The position numbers and the translations under genes were made by a program. The notes beneath the pieces are model-generated. The model was not told the DNA's origin and ran no database searches. It worked only from the letters and a program-made list of their open reading frames with translations. A stretch of DNA of 64,000 bases from Aerophototrophica crusticola (GTDB taxonomy: Bacteria; Pseudomonadota; Alphaproteobacteria; Azospirillales; Azospirillaceae), in assembly GCA_001939945.1 (NCBI GenBank), contig MOEB01000003.1, positions 62,001 to 126,000 on the forward strand, read 5' to 3'. This document shows, in pieces, positions 3,833 through 46,323 of the stretch; the stretch's first letter is position 1; the number at the start of each line of letters is the position of its first letter.

Positions 3833-3968
3833 GATAGGTGATCGTCCCCGATCACCTATCCCCTCAAACGCCGGGCGGGCGCATCCGCGCCCTTGGCTCA
3901 CGCGGGCATGGGCCCGCGGGCCGGCGGTCGCCGACCTCCAGCGGCATGAGCCGATGCCTCATGCCGCT
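3833..3968. repeat. Family C five-hairpin element, copy 1
   Basis: Five consecutive stem-loops. Stem 1: GATAGGTGATCG (3833-3844) with CGATCACCTATC (3849-3860). Stem 2: GGGCGC/GCGCCC around ATCC (3877-3892). Stem 3: CGCGGGC/GCCCGCG around ATGG (3901-3918). Stem 4: CGGC/GCCG around GGTC (3922-3933). Stem 5: AGCGGCATGAG (3940-3950) with CTCATGCCGCT (3958-3968). The linkers CCCTCAAACGCCGGGC and TTGGCTCA are shared with the copy at 25739-25886, while stems 1, 2 and 5 have different but still complementary sequences there. The rest of the 339-base gap (3826-4164) holds only a possible -10 box, TATAGT, at 4119-4124. Confidence 0.85.
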
Positions 3969-18654: not shown

Positions 18655-18706
18655 GACGGGTCCCCTGTGGTGACGGAGACGTGCCGCCCGTGCCGGGGAT
18701 TTCTGT

Positions 18707-18798
18707 TTCCCCCGCAAAGGCGGGGGCCCACGGTTCTTGACCCGGGTTGCGCCGGCCCTGGCGTTGGAAAACTTTGGACCCCCGCCTGCGCGGGGGAA
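18707..18798. repeat. Palindromic repeat family A, copy 1 (92 bp)
   Basis: Inverted repeat whose two arms each contain a hairpin. Left arm: TTCCCCCGC-AAAG-GCGGGGG followed by CCCACGGTTCTTGACCC. Right arm ends CCCCCGC-CTGC-GCGGGGGAA. The outer arms are complementary to each other as well, so the whole element can fold as a cruciform or as two hairpins. It lies in the gap between the antiporter and the M42 peptidase genes. Confidence 0.8.
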
Positions 18799-18880
18799 GC
18801 ACGACAACCTGCCACGGCAACCGGCTTTTCGCCCCGGGGACCACGGCCCGGGCAGGCTTTCTCCCCAGGGAGAAGAGGCG

Positions 18881-21656: not shown

Positions 21657-21787
21657 CGCCGCTGGTCCTGTGGTTGGGGGCGGGGTGTTCGTTGAACAGT
21701 CGGGGGGTGGGGGAGGTGCCGGGGGGACTCAACGGGGCGGATCAGAGCCGAGGCGGCAGCAAGCCGGTTTGTCCAAGGCTCAACCGC

Positions 21788-21879
21788 TTCCCCTGCGGAA
21801 GCAGGGGCCCACGGTTTTTGACCCGCTATCCCACATCACACTGGTCGAAGAACTGTGGGCCCCTGCTTTCGCAGGGGAG
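21788..21879. repeat. Palindromic repeat family A, copy 2 (92 bp)
   Basis: Same length and layout as the copy at 18707-18798. Left arm TTCCCCTGC-GGAA-GCAGGGG then CCCACGGTTTTTGACCC; right arm GAACTGTGGG then CCCCTGC-TTTC-GCAGGGGAG. Relative to copy 1 the hairpin stems change C-G to T-A in step on both sides, so pairing is preserved. It sits in the 291-base gap between ngg and asnO. The remaining gap shows no further gene. Confidence 0.82.
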
Positions 21880-21947
21880 ACAGAAAGTGGCGGAAGCGGA
21901 GGGTCGGCGCCCTCCCACGGGGGTGGGGAAGCGGGCATGAGGGTGCC

Positions 21948-25739: not shown

Positions 25740-25886
25740 TACCAGCCGCCGTTGATCGTGACCGATCAACGGCCCCTCAAACGCCGGGCGCCGCCATCCG
25801 GCGGCTTGGCTCACGCGGGCATGGGCCCGCGGGCCGGCAGTCGCCGGCCTCCAAGCGCATGAGTCAGAAACTCATGCGCTTGGTAT
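25739..25886. repeat. Family C five-hairpin element, copy 2
   Basis: Begins at the stop codon of the chemoreceptor gene. Stem 1: GCCGTTGATCG (25748-25758)/CGATCAACGGC (25763-25773). Stem 2: GCCGCC/GGCGGC around ATCC (25790-25805). Stem 3: CGCGGGC/GCCCGCG around ATGG (25814-25831). Stem 4: CCGGC/GCCGG around AGTC (25834-25847). Stem 5: CCAAGCGCATGAGT (25851-25864)/ACTCATGCGCTTGG (25870-25883). ATACCA (25739-25744) and TGGTAT (25881-25886) could close the whole element. Order, linkers and the ATCC and ATGG loops match the copy at 3833-3968. Confidence 0.88.
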
Positions 25887-28963: not shown

Positions 28964-29941
28964 ATGTCCGCATTGCTCGACGTCACCGGCACGGGGGAGG
29001 AGGGCACCCCCCTTCCCGCCAACACCAACCGCCTCCCCCGCGCAGGCGGGGGTCCACGGTTCTTCGGCACCAGCGCCGCGGCACCGGGGTCAAAAACTGT
29101 GGGCCCCCGCCTTCGCGGGGGAAGCGGGATCATGGGGCCGATCAGGGGATTGGCAAAGGCAGCCACCCGCAAGGCCGTGGACCTGCTGCCCTTCCTGGTG
29201 GCGCTCGCCCTGCTGCTCGGCCTGTGGGAGCTGGCCTGCCACGGCACCAAGGCCGGCCTGCCGCCGCCGTCAAAGGTGGTGGCGGACACGTGGGAGCTGA
29301 TCGTCGACCCGTTCTTCGACAATGGCGGCACGGACAAGGGCCTGTTCTGGCACCTGGCCGCCAGCCTGAAGCGGGTGGCGGTGGGCTTCTCCCTCGCCGC
29401 CGTCGCTGGCATCGCCCTGGGCGTGCTGATCGGGCAGTCGGCCCTGGCCTACCGCGGCCTGGACCCGCTGTTCCAGGTGCTGCGCACGGTGCCGCCGCTG
29501 GCCTGGCTGCCCATCTCCCTGGCCGCGTTCCAGCAGGCGGACCCCTCGGCCATCTTCGTGATCTTCATCACGTCGGTCTGGCCCATCATCCTGAACACGG
29601 CCGTGGGCATCCGGCAGATCCCCAAGGATTACGTGAACGTGGCCCGGGTGCTGCGCCTGTCGCCGCTGGAATACTTCTTCAAGATCATGCTGCCGGCCAC
29701 GGTCCCCTACATCTTCACCGGGCTGAAGATCGGCATCGGCCTGTCCTGGCTGGCCATCGTGGCGGCGGAGATGCTGATCGGCGGCGTGGGCATCGGCTTC
29801 TTCATCTGGGACGCTTGGAACAGCTCGCTGATGAGCGAGATCATCCTGGCCCTGGTCTATGTCGGCCTGGTCGGCTTCATGCTGGACCGCGCCATCACCC
29901 TGCTGGCCGCCCGCGTCGGCGGCGGCATGCCCAAGCGCTGA
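28964..29941 (+). CDS. nrtB: Nitrate ABC transporter permease, N-terminus carrying a palindromic repeat
   Basis: Inner-membrane permease of the NrtB/SsuC type. Six hydrophobic helices and the coupling loop LRLSPLEYFFKIMLPATVPYI are present; IGGVGIGFFIWDAWNS is typical of the nitrate/taurine subgroup. The frame opens at 28964 after a strong GGGGGG ribosome site, 14 bases past the binding-protein stop. Residues 24-54 would be encoded by a 91 bp family A repeat, ending just before Met57 (29132), an alternative start with a weaker SD. With the upstream start the protein has 325 residues, with the downstream one 269, close to the usual ~270-290. Which start is used is unresolved. Confidence 0.85.
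   Translation: MSALLDVTGTGEEGTPLPANTNRLPRAGGGPRFFGTSAAAPGSKTVGPRLRGGSGIMGPIRGLAKAATRKAVDLLPFLVALALLLGLWELACHGTKAGLPPPSKVVADTWELIVDPFFDNGGTDKGLFWHLAASLKRVAVGFSLAAVAGIALGVLIGQSALAYRGLDPLFQVLRTVPPLAWLPISLAAFQQADPSAIFVIFITSVWPIILNTAVGIRQIPKDYVNVARVLRLSPLEYFFKIMLPATVPYIFTGLKIGIGLSWLAIVAAEMLIGGVGIGFFIWDAWNSSLMSEIILALVYVGLVGFMLDRAITLLAARVGGGMPKR
29033..29123. repeat. Palindromic repeat family A, copy 3 (91 bp)
   Basis: Left arm CTCCCCCGC-GCAG-GCGGGGG then TCCACGGTTCTTCGG; right arm GGGGTCAAAAACTGTGGG then CCCCCGC-CTTC-GCGGGGGAA. It lies inside the open frame of the nitrate permease gene, just upstream of an internal ATG, with no stop codon in that frame. Confidence 0.8.
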
Positions 29942-30945: not shown

Positions 30946-33411
30946 ATGAACAAGAGCAACCCTAGGGAACGCCTCGTCGTCGTCGGCAACGGCATGGCCG
31001 GCATCCGGACGGTGGAGGAGCTGCTGGCCCTCGACCCCGGGCGTTACGACGTCACCGTGTTCGGCGCCGAGCCGCACGTGAACTACAACCGCATCATGCT
31101 GTCCCCCGTGCTGGCGGGGGAGAAGACGTTCCAGGACATCGTCCTGAACGACCGGGACTGGTACGCCGCCAACGGCATCACCCTTCACGCCGGCGACAGG
31201 GTGGTGGGCGTCGACCGGGCGGCGAAGCTGGTCATGGCGGTGTCGGGCCTGTTCGTGCCCTATGACAAGCTGCTGCTGGCCACGGGCAGCGACCCCTTCA
31301 TCGTGCCGGTGCCGGGCAAGGACCTGCCCGGCGTGGTCACCTTCCGCGACCTGGCGGACGTGGACGCCATGCTGGCGGCTTCCGCCGAGGGCGGCAGCGC
31401 CGTGGTCATCGGCGGCGGGCTGTTGGGGCTGGAGGCGGCGGCCGGGCTGAAGGCGCGGGGGATGGACGTCACCGTCCTGCACCTGATGCCCACCCTGATG
31501 GAGCGGCAGCTGGACCCGGCGGCCGGGCACCTGCTGGAACAGGCGCTGGAGAAGCGCGGCATCCGCGTCATCACAAGGGCCAACACCCACGCCATCCTGG
31601 GCGAGGGCAAGGTGACAGGCGTCCGCCTGGACGACGGGCGGGAGATCGCGGCGGACATCGTCGTCATGGCTGTGGGCATCCGGCCCAGCACGGGACTAGC
31701 CCGGGCCGCGGGGATCGAGGTGAACCGTGGCGTGCTGGTGGACGACCACATGCGCACCAGCGACCCCGCCATCCTGGCGGTGGGGGAGTGTGTGGAGCAC
31801 CGGGGCCACTGCTACGGGCTGGTGGCGCCCCTGTGGGACATGGCCAAGGTGGCGGCGGCGCAGTTGGCAGGGGACGGGGGGCGGGCCTACCAGGGCTCCG
31901 TCACCTCCACCAAGCTGAAGGTGACGGGCATCGACGTCTTTTCCGCCGGCGACTTCGCCGAGGGCAAGGGGCGGGAGGAGATCGTCCTGCGCGACGCCGC
32001 CCGCGGCGTCTACAAGCGGTTGGTCATCCAGGACAACCGCATCGTGGGCGTGGTGCTGTATGGGGAGACGGCGGACGGCCCCTGGTTTTTCGACCTGCTG
32101 CGCCAGGGCACGGACATCACCGACCTGCGCGAAAGCCTGATCTTCGGCCAGGCCTATGCCGGGGGTGCCCCCCTGGACCCTATGGCGGCCGTTGCAGCCT
32201 TGCCGGATGAGGCAGAGATCTGCGGCTGCAACGGCGTCTGCAAGGGGCAGGTCACGAGTGCCATCACCGCCAAGGGCCTGACGGACGTGGACGGCGTGCG
32301 CGCCGCCACCAAGGCGTCCGCCTCCTGCGGGTCCTGCACGGGGCAGGTGGAGAAGCTGCTGGCCCTGACCCTGGGCGACAGGTACAAGCCCGCCGCGGTG
32401 CAGCCGGTCTGCGCCTGCACCAGCCACGGGCATGACGAGGTGCGGCGGCGCATCGTTTCCCAGGGCCTGAAGTCCATCCAGGCGGTCATGCAGGCACTGG
32501 AATGGAAGACCTCCTGCGGCTGCGCCAAGTGCCGGCCGGCCCTGAACTTCTACCTGCTGGCCACCTGGCCCGGCGAATATGTGGACGACCAGCAGTCCCG
32601 CTTCGTGAACGAGCGGCTGCACGCCAACATCCAGAAGGACGGCACCTACAGCGTCGTCCCCCGCATGTGGGGCGGCGTGACCAGCGCCAAGGAGCTGCGC
32701 GCCATCGCGGACGTGGCGGACAAATACGCCATCCCCACGGTGAAGGTCACCGGCGGCCAGCGCATCGACCTGCTGGGCGTGCGGAAGGAAGACCTGCCCG
32801 CCGTCTGGGCCGACCTGAACGCCGCGGGCATGGTCAGCGGCCACGCCTATGCCAAGGGCCTGCGCACGGTGAAGACCTGCGTCGGCACGGACTGGTGCCG
32901 GTTCGGCACGCAGGACAGCACGGGGCTGGGCATAAAGCTTGAGAAGTTCCTCTGGGGCTCCTGGACCCCGGCCAAGCTGAAGATGGCGGTCAGCGGCTGC
33001 CCCCGGAACTGCGCCGAATCCACCTGCAAGGACATCGGCATCATCTGCGTGGACAGCGGGTACGAGATCCACTTCGCCGGGGCCGCGGGGCTGGAGATTA
33101 GGGGGACCGAGGTGCTGTGCCATGTGGGCACGGAGGCGGAGGTGCTGGAGGTCTGCGCTGCCCTGGTCCAGGCGTACCGGGAGCAGGGCCGCTACCTGGA
33201 GCGGGTCTACAAATGGGCCAAGCGCGTCGGCAGTGACGCCATCCGCGCCCAGGTGGTGGCGGACCTGTCCAACCGCCGAGCCCTGTACGACCGGTTCGTC
33301 CACTCCCAACAATTTGCCCAGGTGGACCCCTGGGCCGAGCGGGTGCGCGGGCTGGACGCGCATGAATTCCAGCCCCTGTCCCCCCTGCCTGTCCTGGAAC
33401 CCGCAGAATGA
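30946..33411 (+). CDS. nirB: Assimilatory nitrite reductase [NAD(P)H], large subunit
   Basis: 821-residue cytosolic enzyme that reduces nitrite to ammonium. N-terminal FAD/NAD domain (VVVGNGMAGIRTVEELL, later VVIGGGLLGLEAAAGL). A BFD-type [2Fe-2S] domain follows at ~425-475 (CGCNGVCKGQV and CGSCTGQVEKLL), with further cysteines CGCAKCRPALN near residue 525. The C-terminal siroheme/4Fe-4S region includes TCVGTDWCRFGTQDS and SGCPRNCAESTCKDIG, whose cysteines hold the coupled cluster. Length and order equal typical NirB. The stop overlaps nirD by 4 bases. The enzyme needs siroheme, made by the cysG product at the end of this operon. Confidence 0.93.
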   Translation: MNKSNPRERLVVVGNGMAGIRTVEELLALDPGRYDVTVFGAEPHVNYNRIMLSPVLAGEKTFQDIVLNDRDWYAANGITLHAGDRVVGVDRAAKLVMAVSGLFVPYDKLLLATGSDPFIVPVPGKDLPGVVTFRDLADVDAMLAASAEGGSAVVIGGGLLGLEAAAGLKARGMDVTVLHLMPTLMERQLDPAAGHLLEQALEKRGIRVITRANTHAILGEGKVTGVRLDDGREIAADIVVMAVGIRPSTGLARAAGIEVNRGVLVDDHMRTSDPAILAVGECVEHRGHCYGLVAPLWDMAKVAAAQLAGDGGRAYQGSVTSTKLKVTGIDVFSAGDFAEGKGREEIVLRDAARGVYKRLVIQDNRIVGVVLYGETADGPWFFDLLRQGTDITDLRESLIFGQAYAGGAPLDPMAAVAALPDEAEICGCNGVCKGQVTSAITAKGLTDVDGVRAATKASASCGSCTGQVEKLLALTLGDRYKPAAVQPVCACTSHGHDEVRRRIVSQGLKSIQAVMQALEWKTSCGCAKCRPALNFYLLATWPGEYVDDQQSRFVNERLHANIQKDGTYSVVPRMWGGVTSAKELRAIADVADKYAIPTVKVTGGQRIDLLGVRKEDLPAVWADLNAAGMVSGHAYAKGLRTVKTCVGTDWCRFGTQDSTGLGIKLEKFLWGSWTPAKLKMAVSGCPRNCAESTCKDIGIICVDSGYEIHFAGAAGLEIRGTEVLCHVGTEAEVLEVCAALVQAYREQGRYLERVYKWAKRVGSDAIRAQVVADLSNRRALYDRFVHSQQFAQVDPWAERVRGLDAHEFQPLSPLPVLEPAE

Positions 33412-33749
33412 GCAACGCGCTGAGCTGGGTCGCCATCGGCACCCTGTCCGACATCCCCGTCCGCGGGGCCCGCACGGTGAACACGCCCAATGGACGGGTC
33501 GCCGTGTTCCGCACGGCGGACGACCGCATCTTCGCCCTGGATGACCGCTGCCCCCACAAGGGCGGCCCCCTGGCCCAAGGCATCGTGCATGACCGGTCCG
33601 TGACCTGCCCGCTGCACAATTTGGTCATCGACCTGGCGACCGGGGAGGCGCGGGGGGAGGACCGGCTGTGCGCCCGCACCCTGCCGGTTCGGGTGGAGGG
33701 CGGGCGGGTGTTGCTGGGCCTCGGCCAGCGCGCCGTGCAGGCGGCCTGA
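33408..33749 (+). CDS. nirD: Nitrite reductase small subunit (Rieske-like)
   Basis: 113-residue partner of NirB with a Rieske fold. The ligand motifs CPHKGG and CPLHN are both complete here, so this copy can hold a [2Fe-2S] cluster, whereas enterobacterial NirD proteins lack the ligands. The start ATG overlaps the nirB stop (ATGA), indicating coupled translation and equal stoichiometry. Only two bases separate it from the nitrate reductase gene. Confidence 0.9.
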   Translation: MSNALSWVAIGTLSDIPVRGARTVNTPNGRVAVFRTADDRIFALDDRCPHKGGPLAQGIVHDRSVTCPLHNLVIDLATGEARGEDRLCARTLPVRVEGGRVLLGLGQRAVQAA

Positions 33750-33751
33750 CC

Positions 33752-36583
33752 ATGCCCGACGCCCTGACCCAACCCCCGGCAACCCGCACCACCTGCCCCT
33801 ATTGCGGGGTGGGCTGCGGGGTGCTTGCGACGCCCGGGCCCGGCGGCACCGTGACGGTGCAGGGGGACCCGGACCACCCGGCGAATTTCGGCCGGCTCTG
33901 TTCCAAAGGGGCGGCGTTGGGGGAGACGATGGGGCTGGAAGGCCGACTGCTCCACCCCATGGTCGGCGGGCAGCGGGTGGGGTGGGACGCGGCGCTGGAT
34001 TTGGTGGCGGGCACCTTCGCCCGCACCGTCGCGGAGCACGGGCCGGACAGCGTGGCCTTCTACGTCTCCGGCCAGATCCTGACGGAGGACTATTACGTCG
34101 CCAACAAGCTGATGAAGGGCTTCATCGGGTCGGCGAACATCGACACCAACTCCCGCCTCTGCATGGCCTCCACCGTTGCGGGGCACCGCCGGGCCTTTGG
34201 GGCGGACGTGGTGCCAGGGTGCTATGAGGACCTTGAGCAGGCGGATCTTGTCGTCCTGGTAGGCAGCAACCTGGCCTGGTGCCACCCGGTGCTGTTCCAG
34301 CGCATCCAGGCGGAACGGGCAAAACGGCCCAGCCTGAAGCTTGTCGTGGTGGACCCCCGCCGCACCCAGACGGCCGCCGCGGCGGACCTGCACCTGCCCC
34401 TGGCCCCGGACAGTGATACGGCCCTGTTCAACGGGCTATTGACGCACCTGGACGCCACCGGCCGGGTGGACCAGGCCTATGTGGCCGCGCACACCACGGG
34501 GTTCGCGGAGGCGCTGGAGACGGCGCGGCTGTCCCTGGGCGACGTGGCGGGCCTGACCGGCCTGCCCGCGGCGGACCTCGCCCGCTTCTACGCCCTGTGG
34601 GCGGGGACGGAGCGGGTGGTCACCGTCTTTTCCCAAGGGGTCAACCAGTCCGGCGGCGGCACGGACAAGGTGAACGCCATCATCAACTGCCACCTGGCCA
34701 CCGGCCGCATCGGCAGGCCCGGCATGGGGCCCTTCAGCGTCACCGGCCAGCCCAACGCCATGGGCGGGCGGGAGGTGGGTGGCCTCGCCAACCAGCTTGC
34801 CAGCCACCTGTCGCTGGAGGATGCGGCGCACCGGTCGCTGGTCCGGGCCTTCTGGGGCTCCCCCACCATCGCGGACAAGCCTGGGCTGAAGGCGGTGGAC
34901 CTGTTCCGCGGCATCGCCGAAGGGCGGGTCAAGGCCGTCTGGATCATGGGGACCAACCCGGTGGACAGCCTGCCGGAGGCGGACGCCGTGCGGGCCGGGT
35001 TGCAGGATTGCCCCTTCGTCGTGGTCAGCGACGTGACGGCGCGGACGGACACGACGGCATGGGCCCATGTGCTGCTGCCTGCCGCGGGCTGGGGGGAAAA
35101 GGACGGGACAGTCACCAACAGCGAACGCCGGGTCAGCCGCCAGCGCGGGTTCCTGCCGCTTCCGGGGGAGGCGCGGCCCGACTGGTGGATCATCACCCAG
35201 GTGGCCCGGCGGATGGGGTTCGCTGACCGCTTCGCCTATGAGGGGCCGGCGGACATCTTCCGGGAATATGCGGCGCTGACGGCGCTGGCGTCGGGCGGGA
35301 TGGGGCCACTGGACCTTAGCGGGCTGGTGGGGCTGGACAGTCAGGGCTACGACGCGCTGTCGCCGGTGCAGTGGCCGGTGCGGGCGGGGCTCCCCAACCG
35401 AGATCGAGCAGCGACCCCGTCAACCCAAGAACAACCGCCTCCCCTGCGAAAGCCGGGGCCCACTTTTCTTGACCCCGTTCCCACCGCGACCGCGGAAGAG
35501 GAACTGTGGGCCCCGGCTTTCGCAGGGGAGGCAGGGAAAGGTGCTGCGGCAAGCGAAGCACAACCCAGCAGCGCTGACCCGGGCACCCGCCTCTTCACCG
35601 ACGGCCGGTTCGGCACACCCGACGGCCGCGCGCGGTTCATCCCCACGCCCGTGGTGCAACCCCGCGAACAGCCCCGCCCCCTGCGCCTGAACACAGGCCG
35701 CATCCGGGACCAGTGGCACACCATGACCCGCACCGGCACCTCCCCCCGCCTGTCGCAGCACTTGGCGGAGCCGTTCCTGGAAATCCACCCCGTGGACGCC
35801 GCGGCGGCCGGGATCGCGCCGGCCAGCATCGCGCGGGTGGAAAGCGACCATGGCGCCGTGCTGGTCCGGGCACTGGTGACGGACACGGCACGCCCGGGCT
35901 GCGTGTTCGTGCCCATGCACTGGACCGACCAGTATGCCTCCCAGGCACGGGTGGACGCGGTGGTGGCGCCGCGCACCGACCCCGTCTCAGGACAGCCGGC
36001 GAGCAAGGACACAGCGGTCACCGTCACCCCGGCGCCCATGGCTTGGTACGGCTTCGCCGTGCTGTCGGGTGATCCGGGGGAGATCGCGGCCGAGTATTGG
36101 GCCAAGGCCCGCACGCCCCGGGGCTGGCGGGTGGAGCTGGCGGGGCTGGCGGCACCGGCGGACTGGGCGGCCTTCGCCCGGCGGCTCTTCGGGGATGCGA
36201 CCGGTGAGATGGTCACGGTCAGCGATCCTGCCGCGGGCCGCTACCGCTTTGCCCTGGTAGGGCCGGGCGGGGTGCGGGCGGTGCTGTTCGTGGCGCCGGA
36301 GCCGGTCACCGTGGCCCGAACCTGGGTGGTGGACCTGGTGGGAGGGGAGGGGGAGGGTCGCAGCCTGCTTGCGGGGCGGCCGGGGGCGGACGGGCCGGAC
36401 CGGGGGGCCATCGTCTGCGCCTGCTTCGACGTGGGCGCCAAGCAGATCGCGGCGGCCGCGGCCCAGGGCTGCGTGACCGTGGAGATGGTGGGCAAGGCCC
36501 TGCGGGCCGGGACGAACTGCGGCTCCTGCCGCACGGAGATCGGGAGGATCATCGAGCATGCCAAGCCCGCGCACGCCCATTGA
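33752..36583 (+). CDS. nasA: Assimilatory nitrate reductase catalytic subunit with in-frame repeat insertion
   Basis: 943-residue cytosolic molybdenum enzyme reducing nitrate to nitrite. The N-terminal 4Fe-4S motif is CPYCGVGCGV, then the bis-MGD domains (GRLCSKGAALGET, SRLCMASTVAGHRRAFGAD, FSVTGQPNAMGGREVGGLANQL). The molybdopterin-dinucleotide domain begins around residue 645 (RLNTGRIRDQWHTMTRTG). The last ~60 residues are a BFD-type [2Fe-2S] domain (CACFDVGAKQI, TNCGSCRTEIG), as in bacterial NasC/NasA fusions. Residues 563-593 are encoded by a 92 bp family A repeat, read in frame as PPLRKPGPTFLDP...ELWAPAFAGE, in the linker between the catalytic and C-terminal domains. ATG at 33752 is chosen by fit to the family. 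Confidence 0.92.
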   Translation: MPDALTQPPATRTTCPYCGVGCGVLATPGPGGTVTVQGDPDHPANFGRLCSKGAALGETMGLEGRLLHPMVGGQRVGWDAALDLVAGTFARTVAEHGPDSVAFYVSGQILTEDYYVANKLMKGFIGSANIDTNSRLCMASTVAGHRRAFGADVVPGCYEDLEQADLVVLVGSNLAWCHPVLFQRIQAERAKRPSLKLVVVDPRRTQTAAAADLHLPLAPDSDTALFNGLLTHLDATGRVDQAYVAAHTTGFAEALETARLSLGDVAGLTGLPAADLARFYALWAGTERVVTVFSQGVNQSGGGTDKVNAIINCHLATGRIGRPGMGPFSVTGQPNAMGGREVGGLANQLASHLSLEDAAHRSLVRAFWGSPTIADKPGLKAVDLFRGIAEGRVKAVWIMGTNPVDSLPEADAVRAGLQDCPFVVVSDVTARTDTTAWAHVLLPAAGWGEKDGTVTNSERRVSRQRGFLPLPGEARPDWWIITQVARRMGFADRFAYEGPADIFREYAALTALASGGMGPLDLSGLVGLDSQGYDALSPVQWPVRAGLPNRDRAATPSTQEQPPPLRKPGPTFLDPVPTATAEEELWAPAFAGEAGKGAAASEAQPSSADPGTRLFTDGRFGTPDGRARFIPTPVVQPREQPRPLRLNTGRIRDQWHTMTRTGTSPRLSQHLAEPFLEIHPVDAAAAGIAPASIARVESDHGAVLVRALVTDTARPGCVFVPMHWTDQYASQARVDAVVAPRTDPVSGQPASKDTAVTVTPAPMAWYGFAVLSGDPGEIAAEYWAKARTPRGWRVELAGLAAPADWAAFARRLFGDATGEMVTVSDPAAGRYRFALVGPGGVRAVLFVAPEPVTVARTWVVDLVGGEGEGRSLLAGRPGADGPDRGAIVCACFDVGAKQIAAAAAQGCVTVEMVGKALRAGTNCGSCRTEIGRIIEHAKPAHAH
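35439..35530. repeat. Palindromic repeat family A, copy 4 (92 bp), inside nasA
   Basis: Perfect 25-base terminal inverted repeat: CTCCCCTGCGAAAGCCGGGG followed by CCCAC at the left end, and its exact reverse complement at the right end. The centre, TTTTCTTGACCCC, matches the other copies. It is read without stop codons in the nitrate reductase frame, offset by one base from the frame used in copy 3. Confidence 0.88.
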
Positions 36584-37964
36584 GGCCAGTCCTGCCCGCA
36601 TGCAGCCCCTGGCGCGGCTGCCCGTCTTCCTGGACCTGAACGGCCGCCGGGCGGTGGTGGCGGGGGACGGGGAGGGGGCGGCCTGGAAGGCGGAGCTGCT
36701 GGCCGCCGCGGGGGCCGAGGTGCATGTCTTCAGCGCCTCGGCGGACCTGCCCGGCGTGACGGCCCATGACCGCCCGGTGACCGGGGCCGCCCTGGACGGC
36801 GCCGCCCTGCTGGTGGCGGAAGCGGGGGACGAGGCGGAGGCCGCGCGGCTTTACGCGATGGCCAAGGCAGCGGGCGTGCCCTGCAACATTATCGACCGGC
36901 CCGCCTTCTGCGACTTCACCTTTGGCGCCATCGTCAACCGCAGCCCGGTGGTGATCGGCATCAGCACCGACGGCGCCGCCCCCATCCTGGGCCAAGCCAT
37001 AAGGCGCCGGATTGAGACCCTGCTGCCGCCGGCCCTTGCCGGTTGGGCCGCGGCGGCGAAGGGGATGCGCGGGGCCTTGGCCCAGGCGCTGCCGGACCGG
37101 CAGGCCCGCCGCGCGGCCTGGGAACGCTTCGCCGACCTGGCCATGGCGGCGCGGGATGCGTTGCCGGATGTGAAGGATCTGCTCTTGACGTTGATGGAGG
37201 GTAATGAACGAGGTGGCGGCCGGGTGACGCTGGTGGGGGCCGGGCCGGGGGACGCGGAGCTGCTGACCCTGAAGGCGGTGCGGGCACTCCAGTCGGCGGA
37301 CGTGATCCTGTTCGACGACCTTGTCAGCGCGGAGGTGCTGGAGCTGGCCCGGCGGGAGGCCAAGCGCATGATGGTGGGCAAGCGCGGCGGGCGGGAAAGC
37401 TGCGCCCAGGGCGACATCAACGCCCTGATGCTGCGCCTGGCCCGGCAGGGCAAGCATGTGGTGCGGCTGAAGTCCGGCGACCCCATGATCTTCGGCCGGG
37501 CGGGGGAGGAGATCGCCGAGTTGGAGGCCGCCGGCATCCCGGTTCAGGTGGTGCCCGGCATCACCGCCGCCCTGGCGGCCGCGGCGCGGCTCGGTGTCTC
37601 CCTGACCCACCGGGACGCGGCGCAGTCCGTGCGGTTCGTCACCGGACACGCCCGCGATGGCAGTCTGCCCGCCGACCTGGATTGGCGCGGCTTGGCCGAC
37701 CCGGCCACAACCCTGGTGGTCTATATGGGCGGGCGGACCGTGCGCGGGCTGGCGGCGCGGCTGCTGGCGGAAGGCCTGCCCGGCACCACCCCCGCCCGCA
37801 TCATCACGGCGGTGAGCCGGCCAGAGGAAACGGTGCGGGCGCTGGACCTGGACGGGCTGGCGGCAGCGGACATCCCCAGCGGGGACCCGGTGCTGATCGC
37901 CATCGGTCGCGTGCTGGAAATGGGGCGGGCCGTGGCCGGGAACCGGCTTGAGGCGGTGGCGTGA
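36558..37964 (+). CDS. cysG: Siroheme synthase, trifunctional
   Basis: 468-residue enzyme that turns uroporphyrinogen III into siroheme, the cofactor of the nitrite reductase in this operon. The N-terminal ~210 residues are the precorrin-2 dehydrogenase/ferrochelatase module (VVAGDGEGAAWKAELL NAD-binding segment, NIIDRPAFCDFTFGAIVNR, STDGAAPILGQ). The C-terminal half is uroporphyrinogen-III C-methyltransferase (VTLVGAGPGDAELLTLKAVR, LKSGDPMIFGRAGEE, VVPGITAALAAAARLGVSLTHR, VVYMGGRT). The ATG at 36558 overlaps nasA by 26 bases; Met15 at 36600 is an alternative just past the nasA stop. Confidence 0.93.
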   Translation: MPSPRTPIEASPARMQPLARLPVFLDLNGRRAVVAGDGEGAAWKAELLAAAGAEVHVFSASADLPGVTAHDRPVTGAALDGAALLVAEAGDEAEAARLYAMAKAAGVPCNIIDRPAFCDFTFGAIVNRSPVVIGISTDGAAPILGQAIRRRIETLLPPALAGWAAAAKGMRGALAQALPDRQARRAAWERFADLAMAARDALPDVKDLLLTLMEGNERGGGRVTLVGAGPGDAELLTLKAVRALQSADVILFDDLVSAEVLELARREAKRMMVGKRGGRESCAQGDINALMLRLARQGKHVVRLKSGDPMIFGRAGEEIAELEAAGIPVQVVPGITAALAAAARLGVSLTHRDAAQSVRFVTGHARDGSLPADLDWRGLADPATTLVVYMGGRTVRGLAARLLAEGLPGTTPARIITAVSRPEETVRALDLDGLAAADIPSGDPVLIAIGRVLEMGRAVAGNRLEAVA

Positions 37965-46099: not shown

Positions 46100-46227
46100 G
46101 GCCGGGCACTCCCCCTGCAGGTTCACGTTCTTGGCGTTGGCGCGGGGACAAAACATGCGCGCGGCACTAGGTTTCCCCCGGTGCCGCCTGCTTGGCAAGC
46201 TTCGCAACCCGCGACCGAATGGTCACT

Positions 46228-46323
46228 TTCGAATTCGAAACTCGCAAAGATTGGGTGGACGCGCCAAGGCGTGATCGGGCAAAGTTTCGCAAGCGAGTTT
46301 TGCAAAGTGGCGAATTTTGCGAA
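46228..46323. promoter_or_regulatory. Candidate ScfR/RamB-like operator cluster between pccB and its regulator
   Basis: The 234-base divergent region holds repeated TTTGC/GCAAA motifs: TTTCGCAA (46285-46292), TTTTGCAAA (46298-46306) and AATTTTGCGAA (46313-46323), plus the palindrome TTCGAATTCGAA (46228-46239). RamB-type regulators of acyl-CoA metabolism are known to bind TTTGCAAA-like sites. The three sites lie just upstream of the regulator's own start and could serve both genes. Confidence 0.5.

Follow-up and report, generated by a model that had tools for sequence, protein, structure and literature searches.

The assimilatory nitrate reductase gene nasA of Aerophototrophica crusticola very probably contains a selfish repeat, a dimer of two REP-like units that was inserted in frame, together with companion DNA, into the flexible linker of NasA and has been tolerated there. 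We analysed a 64-kb stretch of DNA (the window), in which nasA lies on the forward strand (33752-36583), runs from the ATG at 33752 to the stop codon at 36581-36583 and encodes the catalytic subunit of 943 amino acids. The open frame of nasA also offers an alternative upstream start, the GTG at 33668. In the scenario that we prefer, a non-autonomous head-to-head REP dimer would have entered nasA along with some 87 bp of further sequence, in a single event or in several, after the split from the closest sampled relative. Because the insertion is in frame, free of stop codons and placed in an inter-domain linker, nasA stayed readable, and the resulting NasA is modelled to carry a loop of 61 disordered residues. 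The insert was probably kept since it does little harm, rather than for any usefulness. Insertion events of this kind are known. For a palindromic insert in a nitrate reductase, no case was found in the open literature, outside which most subscription journals lie. A clean example of a non-coding repeat turned coding is thereby added from a metalloenzyme of a bacterium other than Rickettsia, with three more in the same genome.

The palindromic element is 96 bp long (35437-35532, forward strand; family A repeat) and is read in frame within nasA. Its arms, at 35437-35463 on the forward strand and 35506-35532 on the reverse strand, are exact reverse complements of 27 bp each, with a spacer between them (35464-35505, forward strand) that measures 44 nt if counted from CCA to TGG. 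The preliminary description had recognised this palindrome but drawn it slightly short, at 35439-35530 with 25-bp arms. The REP unit of the left arm (35436-35462) consists of a CGCC tag, two 8-nt stem halves, a GAAA loop and a CCA tail, and the tag of the right arm is TGCC. As DNA, the element folds with -45.7 kcal/mol, compared with -19.4 +/- 2.8 for 200 dinucleotide shuffles (z = -9.4), and as RNA it reaches -77.8 (z = -10.3). Numbered from the ATG at 33752, codons 563-593 span the palindrome without a stop, just as had been claimed. The linker position proposed for it agrees with the Pfam domains of NasA (Molybdop_Fe4S4, Molybdopterin, Molydop_binding and Fer2_BFD), the element lying between Molybdopterin (65-486) and Molydop_binding (644-754). 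A tandem-repeat origin of the insert was rejected, as there is no tandem repeat at 33000-37500, and no Rfam match at gathering scores was found anywhere in the window.

The insertion in NasA extends beyond the palindrome. In the best matches from a search of 40 genomes, homology to NasA stops at about residue 545 and restarts at about residue 607, and in the closest relative (genome G022, 79% identity over the aligned NasA protein) the two aligned pieces are separated by 3 bp. This delimits a lineage-specific insertion of 61 residues (546-606; 35387-35569, forward strand) with low pLDDT. An insertion relative to other NasA proteins had been expected and is present, although its size had been put at about 30 residues. 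At 183 bp, it is about twice as long as the palindrome, leaving about 87 bp of other DNA in a left, non-palindromic part (35387-35436) and a right part (35533-35569), both on the forward strand. These flanking parts look like non-coding DNA because their GC3 is low (8 of the 16 codons counted on the left, 547-562, and 5 of the 13 counted on the right, 594-606) compared with the rest of nasA, where it amounts to 496 of 545 codons upstream of the insert and 304 of 336 downstream. For the non-palindromic flanks, no credible second copy was found in the genome, the sole further match below E = 1 crossing an artificial query junction, and none among the fetched repeat loci.

Judged from these alignments, the comparison with relatives places the insertion after the split of the lineages. 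The segment could instead be an ancestral linker that resembles the repeat by chance or that was lost in all relatives. The length of the linker does vary, from -7 to +72 residues relative to the reference among the 99 NasA loci measured (19 relatives and 80 named records). Ancestry is nevertheless extremely unlikely: none of the 19 aligned relatives has the segment, which refutes this explanation for the relatives sampled and disposes of the earlier concern that all homologues might have it in non-repeat codons. The segment also matches about 83 dispersed copies, and its GC3, at 21 of 31 codons for the dimer and 13 of 29 for the flanks, falls below the gene's value of about 0.9. As the closest relative is just 79% identical, its empty site is too distant to fix the insertion edges or a target site duplication of the MITE type, and the insertion of the dimer and the growth of the linker may have been separate events.

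The element belongs to a dispersed family. A strict symmetric pattern found at least 68 dimers in the 6.06-Mb genome and the reversed-pattern control found none, and merging three genome searches by hand gave about 83 dimer places or more; all counts from the genome searches with the repeat model, which scored the first 150 or 48 candidates, are lower bounds. The window holds four copies of the family, so that the earlier claim of a family repeat is upheld both locally and across the genome. Besides the dimer in nasA, these copies lie at 18700-18802, 21781-21883 and 29026-29128, all on the forward strand, the last of them (L252), in the single frame examined, upstream of what we read by eye as an ABC permease. 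In the layout of the dimers, two REP-like units face each other with their tags outside and their CCA tails inside. Both units were found in 68 of the 82 loci searched, and the commonest spacing from CCA to TGG was 44 nt (47 of the 68 dimers with both units). Arm mismatch was 3.0 within dimers versus 4.0 between dimers (72 of 82 loci with both arms; 0 of 5000 permutations). In the nasA copy, unit position 18 is C in the left and the right arm alike, and this paired change is unique among the fetched copies. This change disrupts a pair in each of the small REP hairpins and preserves the long hairpin.

The paired change also bears on whether an assembly error put the repeat into nasA. The assembly is a draft of 328 contigs, yet such an error is so improbable as to be nearly negligible, as the element is in frame, is flanked by unique sequence on a 226-kb contig and combines arm changes that no other fetched copy has, and three further in-frame cases exist. 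More widely, matches to the repeat model occur in every one of the 11 genomes of the genus and in at least 48 of 82 genomes of the family (E 0.001 or better, strict filter), with weak matches in other genera possibly belonging to other REP families. The window element had no match in the plasmid collection. A search for a Y1 transposase (PF01797) gave no match in the organism's own genome (99.99% complete), the control search being positive in 5 of 14 genomes; such a gene may fall into a gap of the assembly or be carried by a relative.

The dimers resemble the CGTC REP superfamily of alphaproteobacteria. As described by Di Nocera and colleagues (2013; PMC3733652), this superfamily is defined by a terminal CGTC tag (with TGTC and CCTC accepted), a stem of 8-9 bp with complementary A-T at the first and second positions, a loop of 4-5 nt and a CCA tail, without transposase association, and intragenic REPs occur in several species, already known outside Rickettsia. 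Like the head-to-head dimers of CGTC-tagged REPs, those described here combine a 4-nt loop and a CCA tail with outward tags and inward tails; they are likewise dispersed, show no associated Y1 transposase in the PF01797 search of the own genome and lie partly inside genes. The CCA end is present in 149 of 150 units, a figure that is partly built in by a pattern with a fixed layout and four allowed tails, and a free alignment of 39 copies gave the same layout of loop and CCA tail. Unlike in CGTC REPs, the tag is [CT]G[CT][CT] in 127 of 150 units and CGTC, TGTC or CCTC in only 9 of 150, the nasA copy having CGCC and TGCC. The A-T first stem pair of CGTC REPs is also lacking: in 71 of 72 dimers both units have T at the first stem position, with mostly C or T as its partner, and seven of the eight stem positions pair, or six in the nasA copy. 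Because the tag and the first stem pair depart from those of the superfamily, we describe the element as a CGTC-like head-to-head REP dimer rather than as a CGTC member.

The comparison with the palindromic elements of Rickettsia, drawn in the preliminary description, proved apt, since the CGTC REPs of R. conorii are equated with RPE-4 and RPE-6 in PMC3733652. Like RPE-4 and RPE-6, the dimers include palindromes of about 100 bp that are in frame in unrelated genes, in loops that are exposed or, for NasA, predicted to be disordered. The insert in nasA exceeds its palindrome, like extended RPE-4; in the genome of R. japonica, inserts with RPE-4, RPE-6 and RPE-7 are longer than their palindromes and occupy areas exposed to solvent (PMC3767692), which is also what the NasA model predicts. 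Unlike with RPE-4 and RPE-6, the host is not a Rickettsia and only four in-frame cases stand among 79 located dimers; the likeness is one of layout and placement. Rickettsia genomes are far smaller than the 6.06 Mb of the present host. A further likeness is to REPINs with RAYT transposases (PMC3116915), which are inverted REP doublets; in both, the arms go together. Unlike REPINs, the dimers have a tag other than GTAG, and no Y1 (RAYT) transposase was detected in their genome. The RIME-like rhizobial repeats in other NasA genes, described below, bear no by-eye resemblance to the window element.

We next consider the protein into which the dimer is translated. An AlphaFold2 model of NasA, built with 44 sequences, had a mean pLDDT of 85.2, whereas residues 550-607 had pLDDT below 50 and were all coil, and five blocks of residues 551-600 had mean values of 27-36. 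The 61-residue loop is thus predicted to be disordered. By Foldseek, the solved structures that match the model best belong to formate dehydrogenases and periplasmic nitrate reductases. Seven cysteines of NasA (15, 18, 22, 50, 137, 889 and 891) are invariant in the 44 sequences, and Cys 923 and 926 are conserved in at least 90% of them. These nine cysteines presumably lie at cofactor sites, each being assigned to a particular cofactor by our assumption.

The dN/dS of nasA relative to the closest relative is 0.24 before the insert and 0.26 after it, and because of these values the two halves of the gene look equally constrained, with no sign of decay. If nasA were decaying in this strain, the insertion would have been fatal rather than tolerated. 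We hold this to be very unlikely, given a frame that is open over 943 codons, conserved cysteines, a dN/dS of about 0.25 on both sides and neighbouring frames that are open as well and that we read by eye as nirB-, nirD- and cysG-like. From the sequence constraint we infer that NasA, with the dimer and its companion DNA in the linker, would still work as an enzyme. As a separate observation, NasA (33752-36580) is closest to the protein of G022, a genome of another genus (81% over residues 1-545), whereas the good matches within the same genus reach only 61-63%, which suggests horizontal transfer or paralogy of nasA.

In-frame dimers were found in at least four genes whose relatives lack the segment, namely nasA, malQ, a hupK-like gene and a methyltransferase-like gene. 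The screen located 79 of the 83 compiled places and yielded 45 loci at which a frame stays open across the dimer. Beyond nasA, 20 of these 45 loci were read by eye and 11 were given to Pfam, which makes the four cases a lower bound. In three of the four genes the insertion is larger than the palindrome. The dimer in malQ lies between the N-terminal domain and the GH77 domain, and in the MalQ of G022 the pieces that correspond to residues 1-476 and 548-1033 are only 6 bp apart. The methyltransferase-like gene has no Pfam match and was named by reading; its pieces are 12 bp apart in G017, its sole match among the 12 other genomes searched. The hupK-like gene, with a short NiFe-hydrogenase stretch as its single Pfam match, is the least certain of the four cases because its three distant relatives are only about 35-36% identical.

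Several other candidates from this screen were rejected. Five loci (L258, L264, L286, L288 and L259) had coding-like GC3 but no Pfam match and were considered shadow frames. At L209, L245 and L250 the conserved domain is downstream of the dimer, which is extragenic or at most N-terminal, at L252, L256 and L281 it was judged by eye to be upstream, and at L266 the element had been mislocated. Two further observations concern these loci. At the malQ locus (L248; genome C203 46565-49669), a trehalohydrolase-like part and MalQ are fused in one frame, as they are in G022 (1915 and 1911 aa). A second short palindrome, with the core TTTCGAATTCGAAA, recurs in the genome: it is found in the window at 46224-46241, at L249 1626-1641, L216 1434-1449, L220 352-367 and L273 2885-2900, and one of its copies belongs to the left flank of the methyltransferase-like gene's insert.

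Long inserts in the same linker of NasA are also found in other lineages. Nine of the 99 loci have 16 or more extra residues in the linker, and the remaining 90 stay below that number. These nine hold sequence other than the window insert, which is clearly palindromic in four of them and weakly or not in five. With z-scores taken from 100 single-base shuffles, the strong palindromic inserts are those of Mesorhizobium temperatum (L103, -9.0), Mesorhizobium sp. (L105, -6.8) and Xaviernesmea oryzae (L116, -6.8), and the window insert scored -7.8 in the same test. The insert of M. metallidurans (L104) contains a shorter palindrome (-5.9), and the weak or negative inserts are those of L118 (-2.8), L179 (-2.1), L151 (-1.2), L106 (-0.9) and L111 (0.0). 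The NasA linker of M. xinjiangense (L117), which is longer by only 8 residues, includes a short perfect palindrome (-4.5). The in-frame repeats of Mesorhizobium and Xaviernesmea lie at 5600-5794 in L103, 5603-5827 in L105 and 5606-5806 in L116. The insert of L103 matched 755 places in 170 plasmid records and that of L116 matched 949 places in 174, mostly of Sinorhizobium and Rhizobium. Because of these many plasmid matches, both inserts can be classed by sequence as copies of a dispersed rhizobial palindromic repeat, which we take to be RIME-like. RIMEs exist in rhizobia (PMC2573895). The insert of L179 had one weak plasmid match, and for this reason it is only possibly a third kind of repeat in the NasA linker.

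The distribution of these inserts was compared with a FastTree tree of NasA from which the linker was left out. In this tree, the state of 16 or more extra residues changes seven times. The window NasA, L116 and L179 adjoin relatives without a long insert, and L103 does likewise within Mesorhizobium. When 100 NasA genes were scanned for exact inverted repeats, 12 of them had arms of at least 13, versus a mean of 2.3 in codon shuffles, and the two longest arms in that scan (27 and 20) are at the inter-domain linker. Five of the 12 scan matches come from an inverted repeat near residue 34 in five Mesorhizobium NasA, which is ordinary conserved coding sequence. We infer that the inserts of the separate lineages fit a permissive site in the linker. 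A stronger reading is that the linker is a recurrent landing site, which received the REP dimer, the RIME-like repeat (in a Mesorhizobium clade and separately in X. oryzae) and perhaps a third repeat (L179) within a few residues of one another. This reading is doubtful, though not far-fetched; if true, it would point beyond tolerance alone, to a preference of insertion site or to selection that favours a hairpin in the mRNA or an extended loop between domains.

That the insertion in nasA is itself useful is unlikely in our view. An mRNA hairpin might slow ribosomes between the domains, or the loop might alter the enzyme, and selection or site preference would then drive the recurrence. Such usefulness would be in keeping with the other inserts in the same linker of several lineages, of which the rhizobial ones are clearly palindromic, with the very stable RNA fold, and with the MalQ insert, which likewise lies between two domains. 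It sits poorly with the 90 of 99 relatives whose linkers have fewer than 16 extra residues, with the five of nine longer inserts that are not clearly palindromic and with the disorder predicted for the loop. In addition, a Rickettsia Gmk that contains an RPE is active with altered substrate affinity, and the insertion was considered by the reviewer to be neutral or slightly harmful (PMC2229807). We therefore retain the explanation of a REP dimer and companion DNA that are tolerated in the linker. Repeated insertions in one linker across lineages make mere tolerance testable by growth on nitrate.

A minor observation concerns another repeated sequence in the window. Two copies of 105 nt, 82% identical, lie at 3860-3964 and 25773-25877. 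At gathering scores neither copy had an Rfam match, and the lower-scoring matches of 3860-3964 were all at chance level. The copies share a core, side stems that show compensating differences by eye and a terminator-like terminal hairpin, and the fold has a z-score of -2.75. They are possibly an unnamed structured RNA.
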